This document shows, piece by piece, positions 5,468 to 14,964 of a stretch of 64,000 nt of DNA. The DNA is from Phaeacidiphilus oryzae TH49 (GTDB lineage Bacteria > Actinomycetota > Actinomycetes > Streptomycetales > Streptomycetaceae): NCBI RefSeq assembly GCF_000744815.1, contig NZ_JQMQ01000004.1:806001-870000 (forward strand), written 5' to 3'. The notes under the pieces were generated by a model. The model was given only the letters and a program-made list of their open reading frames with translations. It ran no database searches and was not told the origin of the DNA. The position numbers were made by a program, and so were the translations under genes. How positions within the stretch are numbered: position 1 is the first letter of the stretch; the number at the start of each line of letters is the position of its first letter.

Positions 5468-6505
5468 TCAGAAGGACACGTCATCGGGCGGCGGTCCCGT
5501 TGGGCCGACCGCCGCCAGACTCCGCCACGACGCGTCGGGGATGGGCCTGCGGAACTGGGTCGTTGCGTCGATGACCTCTCTGACGCTGCTCAATCCGAGG
5601 AGGGTGCCGGCGACGGCCGGGTGGCGGAGGGGGAAGCGGGCGGCCGCGGCGCGCAGCGGCAGACCGTGCTCCGCGCAGATCTCCTGGAGGCGCAGGGCCC
5701 GGCGCAGCAGAAGCTCGGGCGGTGCCGCGTAGTCGTACGGCGCGTCCGGGCGGGGGTCGGCGAGGAGTCCGGAGTTGAAGACGCCGCCGGCCATGATGGA
5801 CACGCCCCGCCTCAACGCCTGGGGGAGTAGATCGGCCTCTGCGCTGCGGTCGAGGAGGGTGTAGCGGCCGGCGAGGAGGACCACGTCGATGTCGGTGTCC
5901 CGGACGAAGCGGGCGGGCATCGCGGACTGGTTCATGCCGACGCCGATGGCCTTGACGACGCCTTCGGAGCGCAGTTGTTCCAGCGCCGGATAGGCCTCGT
6001 CGAGGGCCTGCCGCTCATGGTCGTCCGGGTCGTGCAGGTAGACGATGTCGATGCGGTCCAGGCCGAGCCGGCCGAGGCTGTCCTCCAGGCTGCGGCGTAC
6101 GCCGTCGGCGCTGAAGTCCCAGCGGCGTCGGTGGGTTGCCGGCACGGCGAAGCCGTTGGCGAGGTCGTCATCGTCGTCGTGCGGGCCGGGGACCGGTTCG
6201 AGGAGTCGGCCGACCTTGGTGGAGAGCGTGTACGCGTCGCGGGGGCGGGCGCGCAGCGCGTTGCCCAGGCGGCGCTCGGAGAGGCCGAGTCCGTAGTGCG
6301 GGGCCGTGTCGTAGGTGCGGATGCCCTGGTCCCAGGCGCACTCCAGGACGGCCGCGGCCTCCGCGTCGTCGATTGCCCGGAAAAGGTTGCCGACCCCCGC
6401 GCCGCCGAAGGCGAGCGGGGTGGTCCAGGCGGCGGAGCGGCCGAGTGGGACGCGGGGGAGCGGGTCGGCCTGGGCCGATCGCCCGGGTTCGTCGTGTCCG
6501 GTCAC
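5468..6505 (-). CDS. Aldo/keto reductase, probable L-fucose (D-threo-aldose) 1-dehydrogenase
   Basis: 345 residues of the aldo/keto reductase fold. The catalytic tetrad is visible: Asp and Tyr in TYDTAPHYGLGLSERRLG, Lys in STKVGRL, His in IVYLHDPDDH. The subgroup with this signature oxidises L-fucose and related sugars at C1 to the lactone. It is the last gene of a minus-strand operon with a lactonase and a sugar permease, which supports step one of L-fucose oxidation. The GTG start at 6505 overlaps the stop of the upstream remnant (GTGA). An Asp run (HDDDDDLAN) lies in a surface loop. Confidence 0.85.
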   Translation of the reverse strand: MTGHDEPGRSAQADPLPRVPLGRSAAWTTPLAFGGAGVGNLFRAIDDAEAAAVLECAWDQGIRTYDTAPHYGLGLSERRLGNALRARPRDAYTLSTKVGRLLEPVPGPHDDDDDLANGFAVPATHRRRWDFSADGVRRSLEDSLGRLGLDRIDIVYLHDPDDHERQALDEAYPALEQLRSEGVVKAIGVGMNQSAMPARFVRDTDIDVVLLAGRYTLLDRSAEADLLPQALRRGVSIMAGGVFNSGLLADPRPDAPYDYAAPPELLLRRALRLQEICAEHGLPLRAAAARFPLRHPAVAGTLLGLSSVREVIDATTQFRRPIPDASWRSLAAVGPTGPPPDDVSF

Positions 6506-6828
6506 AGGGCCGCCTCCAGCTGGGGGAGGGCGTCCGCCTGCTGTGCGAGGTCGGCCTGCCAGAAGTGGCCGTCCGGGTAGCGGAAGGCGGCGATCGATTC
6601 CGTCTTCATGGTCGCGGAGAAGCCGGGGGCGAGCGGGTCGGTGTAGTGGCCCTCGCGGACGACCGCCGGGTCCTCGAAGTGCTCGTTCTCGGGGCCCAGC
6701 CAGCGCAGTTGGCTGTCGCCGTTCAGCTCGCGGCTGAGGGCGCCGGGGTCGGCGCACAGTTCGTCCAAGGTGGGGAAGCGGATGTCGTAGGTGTCCAGCG
6801 CTGTGATCCGCGCGGATTGTTCGGACAA
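6502..6828 (-). pseudogene. L-fuconate dehydratase remnant with two in-frame internal deletions
   Basis: A 108-residue frame is built from three separate pieces of the roughly 430-residue L-fuconate dehydratase: the N terminus (ITALDTYDIRFPT), an early segment (LCADPGALSRELNGDSQLRW, then LGPE), and the C terminus (FEDPAVVREGHYTDPLAPGF, then KTESIAAFRYPDGHFW). The whole catalytic barrel, including the KxK, metal-binding Asp/Glu and His residues, is absent. TTG 6828 has a good ribosome site (AAGGA) and the stop overlaps the next gene as GTGA. It therefore still translates and couples to the aldo/keto reductase, but cannot be a dehydratase. Confidence 0.8.
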
Positions 6829-6893
6829 CGGGAGTTCCTTCTCTGTCTTCTCTGTGTTGATCCGCCAGGGGACGGTGGGCTGGTGACGTGTCG

Positions 6894-8297
6894 TCAGGCC
6901 GCCGCGGACCGCTGCGGCTGCCGCAGCCACAGCGTCTCGATCTCCTCCAGCGACTTGCCGGCGGTCTCCGGCACCCGGCGTGCCACGTACCAGGCGGCGA
7001 TCGCGGACAGCACCGCGAACACGCCGAACACGGCGGACCCGAGCGCGTGCAGCGCGTCCGGGAAGACCAGCGAGAACAGGAAGTTCATCAGGTACTGGGT
7101 GAAGGTGATCACGGCCATGCCGACGGCGCGGGCGCGCAGCGGCAGGACCTCGGGGCAGTAGAGCCAGAAGACCGGGCCGAGGCCGATGCCGAAGGCGAAG
7201 GTGTAGACGAAGACGCAGGCGATGGCGACGACGGTGACGTCGGGGAAGAGCGCGAGCACCACCATCGGCGGCACCTGGGCGATCAGCGAAGCCGTCAGCA
7301 GGCGTACCCGGCCCAGCCGTTCGATGAGCGGCAGGGACACCGCGGTGGACACCACCAGGGCCCCGCCCACGCAGTAGTTGGCGATGGTGCCGGCGCTGCC
7401 CGAGTCGGCGGTGAGGTGCTGGAAGATGACGGGTGCGTAGTAGACGGCCGCGTTGATGCCGGTGAAGACCTGGAAGAAGGTCAGGATGAGGGTGATGCGC
7501 AGCGGGGTGCGGTAGTGGCCGGTGAACAACTCGCGCAGCCCGGTGTGCTGCTGGGCGAGGCTGGTACGGATCTCGGCGACCTCGGCGGCCGCCTCCGCCG
7601 GGCCACTGCGCAGCGTGGTCAGCACTGCCTCGGCGTCGGCCTCCCGGCCGCGCATCATCAGCCAGCGCGGGCCCGCCGGGCTGGTGACCATGCCGATGAA
7701 GAAGATCACCGCGGGGATCGCGCCGAGGCCGAGCATCCACTCCCAGGCGCCGGAGGAGGACAGCGCGTCGCCGACCACGTAGGCGAGGAGAATGCCGACG
7801 TTGACGGCGAGCTGGTAGAGCGCCGTGATGCGGCCGCGCAGCTGCTTGGGCGCGAGTTCGCTCAGGTAGATGAGGCCGAACATATTGGCCAGGCCCACGG
7901 CGAAGCCGAGGACGAAGCGGGACGCCATGAGGACGGGGGCGCTCGGCGCGAGAGCACAGCCGATCGAGCCGAAGAAGAAGATCGCGCCGGCCAGGATCAG
8001 CAGGTGCCGCCGGTCCCAGCGGCGCGCGGCGAGGCCGCCGGCGGCGATCGCGGGCAGCGCGCCGAGCAGCAGCAGGCTGGTGACGAGGCCCTGGCCGGTG
8101 GCACTGAGCCCGAACTGCTTGGTCAGTGGGGCCAGAGCTCCGGAGATGGCTCCAGAGTCGTAACCGTACAGAAGGCCCGACAGGCCGCCGAGTACGGCCA
8201 CCGCGTACACGCGGCGGGGCAGGGCGCCGGCGGATCTGCCGGTGTCGGTGGGTGGTTCCGCGACGGCTTGACGGGACGGGGATGCCTTCGGCGGCAT
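6894..8297 (-). CDS. MFS sugar transporter, sugar-porter family
   Basis: 467 residues with about 12 transmembrane segments. Sugar-porter signatures are present: [19 protein letters not shown] in TM1, RWDRRH between TM2 and TM3, [13 protein letters not shown] before the central loop, [13 protein letters not shown] in TM7 and the ending [13 protein letters not shown]. Likely a proton symporter for a monosaccharide. It lies between lactonase and dehydrogenase genes of the fucose operon, so L-fucose or a related sugar is the likely substrate (inference). The ATG at 8297 is preceded by a GAGAGG-type ribosome site. Confidence 0.9.
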
Positions 8298-8388: not shown

Positions 8389-9249
8389 TCAGTCCGCGAG
8401 CGCGTACACCCGGGTGGCGGTGCCGGACCACACGGCCGTCTGCTCGGACGGGCTGAGGCCCCGGGTGAGGTCCGCGGCGGACGCGACGACGTCGCCGTAC
8501 GAAGCGGCCAGGGTGCACACGGGCCAGTCGGAGCCGAACATCAGCCGGTCCGGGGAGAAGGCGTCCAGTGCGGTCTCCGTGCAGACGCGCAGGTCCTCGG
8601 TGCTCCAACGGCTCCAGTCGGCCTCAGTGACCAGACCGGACAGCTTGCAGACCACGTTGGGCAGTTCGGCCAGCCGCAGCAGGTCGCGCTGCCAGGCCCC
8701 GATGACGCCCGAGGCGATCGGGGGCTTGCCCAGGTGGTCGAGTACGAAGGTGAGTTCGGGCACCGCGGCGGCCGCCCGGCGGGCCGCGGGGAGCTGCTGC
8801 GGGAGGACGATGAGGTCGTAGGCGAGGCCGGCGGCGGCCACGGCGCGCAGGCCGTTCAGGACGTCAGGGCGGGTCAGCCAGTCTGGGTCCGGCTCGCCCT
8901 GGACCTGGTGGCGGATGCCGGCCAGGTACCGGCCACCGGGGAGTCCCCGGAGCCGGGCGAGCTCCTGCACGACGTCGGGCGCGGTGAGATCGGTCCAGCC
9001 GACCACGGCGCGCACCAGGTCCCGCTCTGCCGCCAGGGCGAGCAGTTCCGGGGTCTCGTCGGCGACCGCGACGGTCTGCACTGCCACGCTTGCGCGCACG
9101 CCCTCGCGGCGCGCGAGCGGTGTGAGGTCGGCCAGGGTGAAGTCGCGCCGGAGCGGGGCGAGTTCGGGACCGGTGATCCAGTCCTGATCGCGCACGCCCA
9201 AATCCCAGACGTGATGGTGCGCATCGACGATGTAGGGGGTGGTGCTCAC
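8389..9249 (-). CDS. Amidohydrolase-2 family lactonase, probable L-fucono-lactonase
   Basis: 286-residue TIM-barrel metal hydrolase. The metal-binding HxH is in [12 protein letters not shown]; later barrel signatures are [16 protein letters not shown] (His at the end of strand 6) and [13 protein letters not shown] (catalytic Asp). This subgroup hydrolyses sugar lactones such as L-fuconolactone and L-rhamnonolactone, or 2-pyrone-4,6-dicarboxylate. Clustering with a fucose-type dehydrogenase and a sugar permease favours fuconolactone. GTG 9249 is the first in-frame start before the conserved strand. Confidence 0.85.
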
Positions 9250-9318: not shown

Positions 9319-9521
9319 TCACTCCATGAGGAAGCCCTGTTCCATCGGCGCCCACAGCTCGTGCGGACCGGCCTCCGCGACCGGCTGCTGGCAGTGGTGT
9401 CGTTCGCGATGTGGCAGCGGCGCAGGGTGTCGGGGACCGCCCGCGGGACAGCATGGTGCAGTTCGCGGTACCCGTCGACGTGGTCCGGGAGTACCCGTAC
9501 CACCTGTGCAATGCGTTCCAT
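9319..9521 (-). pseudogene. L-fucose/L-rhamnose mutarotase (RhaM-like) with internal deletion
   Basis: The first 40 or so codons from ATG 9521 read as a RhaM-type mutarotase (MERIAQVVRVLPDHVDGYRE, then LRRCHIAN). The last 23 codons, in a different frame, read as its C terminus (CQQPVAEAGPHELWAPMEQG, then FLME and a stop). The normal protein is about 105-115 residues, so about 40-45 middle codons are missing and the frame is shifted near 9390-9400. It would be the first gene of the minus-strand fucose operon, and the enzyme's job (alpha/beta anomer interconversion) fits the pathway. Confidence 0.75.
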
Positions 9522-11534: not shown

Positions 11535-12623
11535 GTGGCACGGGTGACCAAGGCGGAGGCCTACCTCGTCGACATCGAGGTGGAGACGGTGCGCACCGAT
11601 GCGACCCAGGCCTTCCTCAAGCAGGAGACCCTCTTCGTCGAGGTCGCCACAGACGACGGGCTGACCGGGACCGGCTACTCGTACACCATCGGCACCGGCG
11701 GCCGGGCCGTCCTCGCGATGCTGCGCGACCACCTGCTGCCCGCCCTCGTCGGCCGCGACTCCCGCGAGATCGAAGGGGCCTGGCGGGCGATGTACGACAG
11801 TACGCGCGCCACGATGGTCGGCGCGATCACCGCCCTCGGCCTGGCCGCCGTCGACCTCGCGCTGTGGGACCTGCGGTGCCTGCGGGCCGGCGAGCCGCTG
11901 TGGCGGGTCGCCGGCGGGGCACGCCAGGCGGTTCCGGTGTACGACACCGAGCGCGGCTGGCTCCAGCTGGCCGAGGACGAACTGGTCGCGGGGGCCCTCC
12001 AGGCGCAGCAGCAGGGATTCTCCGGCGTCAAGATCAAGATCGGCAAGCCCAGCCCCGGCGAGGACGCCGCCCGGATCCGGGCCGTACGCGAGGCCGTCGG
12101 ACCCGGCCTGGACATCATGGTCGACGCCAACCAGGCCTTCACCGCCCCCGAGGCCATCCGCCGCGCCGCTCTCCTGGAGCCGTACGACGTCGGCTGGCTG
12201 GAGGAGCCGCTGCCCGCCGAGGACGTGGCGGGCCACGAGCGGCTCGCCGCCTCGACGAGCATCCCGGTGGCGGTGGGGGAGTCCATGTACTCGCTCGGCC
12301 ATTTCCGCGAGTATCTGCAGCGCGGCGCCGCCGGGATCGTGCAGCCCGACGTGGCCCGGATCGGCGGCATCACGCCCTGGCTGAAGGTCGCCCACCTGGC
12401 GGAGGCCTTCAATGTCGAGGTCTGCCCGCACTTCCTGATGGAGATCCACGTCAGCCTGACCGCCGCCGTGCCGAACGCCCGCTATGTCGAGTACATCCCG
12501 CAGCTGCGCGCCGTGACGACGCGTCAGCTGCGGATCGCGGACGGCCTCGCGTACGCGCCGTCCGAGCCCGGGCTCGGCATCGCCTGGGACCGCGATGCCA
12601 TCGACGACCGCCGCGTCGCCTGA
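11535..12623 (+). CDS. Enolase-superfamily (mandelate racemase-type) sugar-acid dehydratase
   Basis: 362 residues with the N-terminal capping domain and C-terminal barrel. Catalytic features are visible: KxK in GVKIKIGKPSP, metal ligands in IMVDANQAF, GWLEEPL and VAVGESMYS, and a late His region PHFLMEIH. It abstracts the alpha proton of a sugar acid and usually loses water. As the island's L-fuconate dehydratase is destroyed, this enzyme is the best candidate to make 2-keto-3-deoxy-L-fuconate. It belongs to another subgroup, so another aldonate remains possible. GTG 11535; the next gene begins 43 bp on. Confidence 0.85.
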   Translation: MARVTKAEAYLVDIEVETVRTDATQAFLKQETLFVEVATDDGLTGTGYSYTIGTGGRAVLAMLRDHLLPALVGRDSREIEGAWRAMYDSTRATMVGAITALGLAAVDLALWDLRCLRAGEPLWRVAGGARQAVPVYDTERGWLQLAEDELVAGALQAQQQGFSGVKIKIGKPSPGEDAARIRAVREAVGPGLDIMVDANQAFTAPEAIRRAALLEPYDVGWLEEPLPAEDVAGHERLAASTSIPVAVGESMYSLGHFREYLQRGAAGIVQPDVARIGGITPWLKVAHLAEAFNVEVCPHFLMEIHVSLTAAVPNARYVEYIPQLRAVTTRQLRIADGLAYAPSEPGLGIAWDRDAIDDRRVA

Positions 12624-14120: not shown

Positions 14121-14964
14121 ATGCGCATCGCCCGCCTGGGCCGGCCGGGGCACGAGGTTCCGGTCGTCGTCGACGGAGACCGGGTCCTCGACCTGAGGAG
14201 CGTCACTCCGGACGTGACCCCCGAGTTCCTCGAACACCGGCTGCCCGCACTCGACCCGACCGGCCTCCCCGAGCTCGCGGACGCCGCAGGGCTGCGCATC
14301 GGCGCGCCCATCACCCGCCCCTCGGCGGTCGTCTGCGTCGGCATGAACTACGCCAAACACGCGGCCGAGTCCGGCGCCGAACCGCCCACCGAGCCGGTCG
14401 TGTTCTTCAAGCACCCCAACACGGTGGTCGGCCCGAACGACGCCGTGGTCATCCCGCGGGGCAGCACCATGACGGACTGGGAGGTCGAACTCGGCATCGT
14501 CATCGGCAAGCAGGCCGGCTACCTCGACTCTCCCGCGGACGCCGCCGCGCACATCGCCGGCTACGTCCTCGGCAACGACGTCTCCGAACGCGAACTGCAG
14601 CTGCACACCTCCGGGGGGGCAGTGGTCGAAGGGCAAGTCCGCACCCACCTTCACCCCCGTCGGGCCCTGGCTGGTCACCGCCGACGAGCTGGACCCGACG
14701 GACGTCCGCCTGCGCAGCCGCGTCAACGGCGAGCCCCGCCAGGACTCCAGCACCGCCGACCTGATCTTCCCCGTGGCCGACATCGTGCATCGGCTCAGCC
14801 AGTTCATGACCCTCGACCCCGGAGACCTCATCCTCACCGGAACCCCGGAGGGCGTCGCCCTCTCCGGCCGCTTCCCCTACCTGCGCCCCGGCGACGTCGT
14901 CGAACTCGACGGCACAGGGCTCGGTACGCAGCGCCAGACGACCATCGCAGCGAAGGACGCATGA
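14121..14964 (+). pseudogene. FAH-family hydrolase (2,4-diketo-3-deoxy-fuconate hydrolase type), apparent +1 frameshift
   Basis: Fumarylacetoacetate hydrolase fold, about 280 residues if repaired. The first part shows VCVGMNYAKHAAESG, the metal ligands in DWEVELGIVIGK and GYVLGNDVSERELQ. After a run of seven G at 14613-14619 the frame changes; with six G it continues SGGQWSKGKS, the family's usual motif, then MTLDPGDLILTGTPEGVALS. The enzyme would cleave the diketo acid made by the next gene's SDR into pyruvate and L-lactate. ATGA overlap with that gene. A homopolymer sequencing error is as likely as a real mutation. Confidence 0.8.

Follow-up and report, generated by a model that had tools for sequence, protein, structure and literature searches.

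How did a 108-codon open reading frame made of fragments of an L-fuconate dehydratase (FucD) gene come to keep its start, frame and stop directly upstream of an aldo/keto reductase (AKR) gene, and does the peptide that it would encode have a role of its own? We examined this question in a 64,000-nucleotide stretch of Phaeacidiphilus oryzae TH49 DNA, referred to throughout as the window. Comparison with approximately 60 intact dehydratases resolved the frame, here termed mini-fucD, into three collinear blocks of the enzyme. These blocks and the translation signals around them are as follows.

6502..6828, minus strand: mini-fucD, the putative relic, from TTG start to TGA stop, 108 codons (alignment to intact FucD)
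6769..6828, minus strand: piece A, N-terminal residues 1-20, ending ARITALDTYDIRFPT (alignment to intact FucD)
6688..6768, minus strand: piece B, capping-domain helix, residues 21-47, LDELCADPGALSRELNGDSQLRWLGPE (alignment)
6502..6687, minus strand: piece C, C-terminal tail, residues 48-108 (alignment)
6835..6840, minus strand: ribosome-binding site AAGGAA, common to intact fucD genes (comparison with intact genes)
6513..6517, minus strand: GGAGG, the Shine-Dalgarno site of AKR itself, 7 nt before its GTG (sequence)
6502..6505, minus strand: GTGA stop/start overlap of mini-fucD and AKR (sequence)

Both joints could be located against 15 intact genes, which bore out the proposal of a first-pass annotation that two in-frame deletions had brought three dehydratase pieces together. 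The deletion at joint 1, between pieces A and B, spans 186 nt (about 62 codons) and that at joint 2, between B and C, 846 nt (about 282 codons), both 0 modulo 3; in total, about 344 of 450 codons were lost, the entire active-site barrel included. In most references, homology at the joints amounts to 0-2 nt at joint 1 and 1 nt at joint 2, the latter crossing a hybrid codon, AAC, that encodes residue N48. Piece B corresponds to a capping-domain helix with the terminal motif LRWLGPE. The mini-frame has a coding-like G+C content at the three codon positions (0.70/0.47/0.93), and its identity to intact orthologues, up to approximately 75% over 93 core columns, excludes a chance similarity to fucD. 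Among the columns conserved at ≥95% in intact genes, 36 of the 38 that fall within the retained pieces are unchanged, and one of the two exceptions is the hybrid joint codon. Because these strongly conserved residues survive, either the deletions are recent or the peptide is constrained.

The same annotation had stated that the whole catalytic barrel is gone, and alignments that include the structure 2HXT indeed place it inside the second deletion. The KxK motif, the Asp/Glu/Glu metal ligands and the His-Asp pair, which are the catalytic residues of the barrel in the enolase superfamily, fall within this deletion in the alignments. With 108 residues, compared to approximately 440 for a capping domain plus barrel, and with no match in Pfam or NCBIfam, the mini-fucD product is not a full-length FucD and, judged from its sequence, cannot be an enzyme. 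What the frame displays instead is collinear fucD homology with disabling deletions at the position that fucD occupies in the operon.

The signals at both ends of the frame have a simple origin. The ribosome-binding site and TTG-TCC start are those of intact orthologues (for example, GAAAGGAACCCCG-TTG-TCC at locus L037), and intact fucD genes overlap the next gene, usually an SDR gene, by ATGA or GTGA; at locus L045, fucD lies directly upstream of an AKR gene with an ATGA overlap. The retention of TTG start, ribosome site, stop and GTGA overlap that had been pointed out for this locus is therefore real, and, because intact orthologues carry identical signals, these features are inherited and nothing special to the mini-gene. 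As expected for a coupled pair, the stop of mini-fucD overlaps the start of AKR (GTGA, 6505-6502). RNA folding placed the Shine-Dalgarno site of AKR within a predicted stem that is no stronger than those of shuffled sequences (z -0.71).

Mini-fucD is part of a fucose-type gene cluster. One strand carries a GntR regulator, the mutarotase, the lactonase, the MFS porter, the relic and AKR, and the other an enolase-superfamily dehydratase, a second porter, a FAH-family hydrolase, an SDR and further genes. The members that bear on the argument are the following, with dN/dS determined against Streptomyces sp. NBC_01016.

5468..6505, minus strand: AKR, likely L-fucose dehydrogenase, intact (dN/dS 0.34)
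6894..8297, minus strand: MFS sugar porter, intact (dN/dS 0.26)
8389..9249, minus strand: L-fuconolactonase-like amidohydrolase, intact
9319..9521, minus strand: mutarotase pseudogene with a 121-nt internal deletion, out of frame, relative to NBC_01016
11535..12623, plus strand: another enolase-superfamily acid-sugar dehydratase, talarate/galactarate-like (93% identity in NBC_01016, dN/dS 0.09)

The closest locus to the window was that of Streptomyces sp. NBC_01016, with protein identities of 75-94% over the genes compared. There, the dehydratase is absent, the stop of the MFS gene overlaps the start of AKR, and an intact fucD is carried elsewhere in the genome. A GH95-type fucosidase gene (L033 8022-10424, minus strand) adjoins AKR convergently at this locus and speaks for L-fucose as the substrate of the cluster. 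The dehydratase at 11535-12623 is the best conserved of the six genes compared between the two loci, and the fuconate step may now be carried out by its product. The FAH-family hydrolase gene (14121 onward, plus strand) is frameshifted by a single base within a G7 run (14613-14619), where NBC_01016 is intact; this could be either a genuine lesion or a homopolymer sequencing error.

TH49 itself encodes an intact FucD2 together with an SDR and an AKR, and an adjoining lactonase, on contig 5, a second set that would render the fucD of the window redundant and dispensable. The mini-frame is not a fragment of this second copy, because it is only approximately 50% identical to FucD2 and up to approximately 75% identical to the main Streptomyces group.

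We surveyed about 230 related loci for broken fucD copies, using as anchors AKR (80 loci) and the SDR gene in 395 genomes of the family (150 loci read). The SDR-anchored set comprised approximately 127 intact fucD genes, six broken ones, 16 loci without fucD and one cut by a contig end; five flagged entries that merely extend past the natural stop were not counted as broken. The AKR-anchored set added the broken copies L061, L104 and L094, the last of which is apparently the same as locus L204. A second, intact fucD was present in seven of the eight other genomes with a broken copy, the exception being G204. For the lactonase, considered as an uncoupled control, two broken copies (L071 and L100) were too few for comparison.

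Whether the frame is kept can be read only where both sides of an internal deletion survive, as they do in the window and in four further copies, each upstream of an intact SDR gene: L277 (genome G204) retains residues 9-73 and 315-437, L234 (G364) residues 4-40 and 424-440, L104 (Streptomyces sp. Ru72) approximately 105-145, 178-207 and 372-441, with a stop in the upstream part, and L061 (S. endocoffeicus) residues 1-74, 184-206 and 320-361. Together, the five relics contain eight large deletions, of which seven are in frame. The remaining one, of 334 nt in L061, is out of frame, but a small compensating shift restores the phase; the net frame is thus kept in 5/5, and all five read through to an ATGA or GTGA overlap. 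Three more copies, L181, L179 and L094, have only C-terminal parts left upstream of an intact SDR gene, and L181 has no in-frame start codon upstream. As read from these loci, fucD has collapsed separately in at least four related species besides that of the window, each time without loss of the net frame, and such repeated, independent collapses are a new result compared to the single-locus observation.

The first-pass annotation had regarded frame retention as meaningful, on the grounds that random decay would often break the frame. The four other readable copies lend this view some support. A plain expectation of one in three does not hold for these genes. Exact repeats within intact fucD are in frame in 43% of cases at 2 nt, 49% at 3 nt, 58% at ≥4 nt, 71% at 6 nt and 93% at ≥10 nt, and repeats of ≥4 nt in other window genes are in phase in 53%, compared to 33% in shuffled genes. 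Codon-phased repeats should bias repeat-mediated deletions toward keeping the frame and so raise the in-frame share in fucD well above 1/3 without any selection. Finding seven or more of eight deletions in frame has P = 0.003 at 1/3 per deletion and P = 0.014-0.03 at phase-corrected shares of 0.43-0.49; leaving out the window case, which was pre-selected, gives P = 0.018 and 0.06-0.10, respectively. Because the phasing of repeats and the exclusion of the window both raise P, the in-frame excess is suggestive only. We found nothing on point in the literature for frame keeping in operon pseudogenes or for an in-frame bias of bacterial microhomology deletions.

Codon-phased short repeats in the GC-rich fucD gene thus explain much of the frame keeping, and that such mutation bias, together with luck, accounts for all of it is close to an even bet in our estimate, if slightly under. 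The joint of L277, at an AAIDVLQ/AAIDALR-type repeat, is what deletion between codon-phased repeats in a codon-periodic gene would leave; at most joints, including both in the window, homology is limited to 0-3 nt, a length at which an in-frame share of approximately 0.37-0.49 is expected, and seven of eight is still somewhat high. Selection for translational coupling, in which AKR starts only when ribosomes pass through the shell to its GTGA and out-of-frame deletions are purged for silencing AKR, is plausible. Beyond the counts above, it draws on the observation that no broken copy at the SDR-anchored loci is of full length and disabled by a frameshift or nonsense mutation alone, on the position of the AKR Shine-Dalgarno site in a predicted stem, and on published work (PMC6728339) that showed strict coupling of overlapping gene pairs in Haloferax and gave a mixed picture in E. 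coli. Several findings limit its reach. AKR owns a GGAGG site and the stem around it does not exceed shuffles; the start-less and C-terminal-only relics precede intact SDR genes; L104 has a stop in its upstream part; NBC_01016 has no dehydratase frame at all, with AKR coupled to the transporter instead; and the in-frame excess shrinks when the window is left out. We therefore lean against coupling as the main cause of frame survival, while treating it as a serious contender.

That the mini-protein might have acquired a new role had also been suggested; it could, for instance, regulate the remaining dehydratase or act as its partner. Here, the evidence points the other way. The retention of most conserved residues and the intact translation signals are what such a role would predict, as would conservation across strains or species and a stable fold, neither of which was observed. 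An AlphaFold model of mini-fucD, computed with 17 relatives, had a mean pLDDT of 59.9 and a pTM of 0.36, and thus no confident fold. The identical mini-versions that might have been expected in relatives did not turn up: a protein search of 395 family genomes returned no full-length match to the mini-protein, a search with mini-AKR DNA found no mini-form in 296 Streptomyces genomes, the joint-2 peptide as a DNA pattern was absent from 393 Streptomyces genomes, plasmid records contained ordinary fucD matches only, and the nearest homologous locus lacks the mini-frame. Furthermore, the five relics have only the frame and an overlapping stop in common. The lengths retained differ, with approximately 40 + 17 residues in L234 and 65 + 123 in L277, and L104 has no N-terminal part in common with either; since each relic retains different pieces, a function of the mini-protein is argued against. 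We consider a new role very unlikely, and the mini-fucD protein itself probably does nothing. An assembly artefact hiding a full-length gene is less credible still: the frameshift in the G7 run hints at possible homopolymer errors in the assembly, while mini-fucD involves two distinct large deletions whose hybrid joints are clean and lie outside repeats, other genomes contain independent fucD relics, and NBC_01016 has lost the gene completely at the same spot.

The account that we favor with good confidence is that mini-fucD represents a redundant fucD gene in decay, a relic devoid of enzyme function, whose frame reflects phase-biased deletion combined with mild filtering against polar lesions. 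Two deletions left of the gene only its N-terminal end, a single capping helix and the C-terminal tail. As the translation signals of the remaining shell are all intact, it would still be translated, and ribosomes ending at the GTGA could restart on the AKR frame. Short direct repeats, being mostly codon-phased, would make mutation favor frame-keeping deletions before selection acts; of the deletions that arise, frame-keeping ones would leave AKR unblocked and frameshifting ones would be more harmful, and both effects together probably produced the shell. In favor of a relic, the cluster has a second broken gene, the out-of-frame mutarotase, and NBC_01016 has lost the dehydratase at this locus. 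Two observations sit less comfortably with it: the 36/38 conserved columns imply peptide constraint if the deletions are old, and joint homology of 0-2 nt in most references is poorly explained by codon-phased repeats.

A broader generalization, that dead genes in overlapping operons are kept as translatable shells with start, frame and stop that deliver ribosomes to the next gene, and that this has happened to fucD several times, independently, in Streptomycetaceae, is tentative, and we would sooner doubt it than rely on it. Still, with the census a single odd locus becomes one of five independent fucD collapses upstream of overlapping genes, all net in frame, a small set open to testing that can separate codon-phased mutation bias from selection for the continued passage of ribosomes into the downstream gene. 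A further lesson is that, in GC-rich genomes, a short in-frame gene with convincing signals need not be a new protein and may simply be a relic.

Compared to known systems, mini-fucD resembles L-fuconate dehydratase (FucD, enolase superfamily; structures 2HXT and 1YEY) in that its N-terminus, LRWLGPE helix and C-terminal tail align and its start signals and stop/start overlap are alike, and differs from it in the absence of the KxK motif, the metal ligands and the His/Asp pair. With bacterial pseudogenes that shrink by internal deletion in redundant catabolic operons, the locus shares an intact redundant copy elsewhere in the genome, another broken gene within the cluster and the loss in NBC_01016; it differs from them in that neither deletion disturbs the reading frame or the GTGA junction with AKR. 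Finally, the mini-fucD/AKR pair has the geometry of termination-reinitiation at ATGA or GTGA overlaps, with a 4-nt overlap and an intragenic Shine-Dalgarno site as in intact fucD-SDR or fucD-AKR pairs, but in contrast to known pairs of this kind the upstream frame is a relic, and the coupling is one that we infer from sequence.
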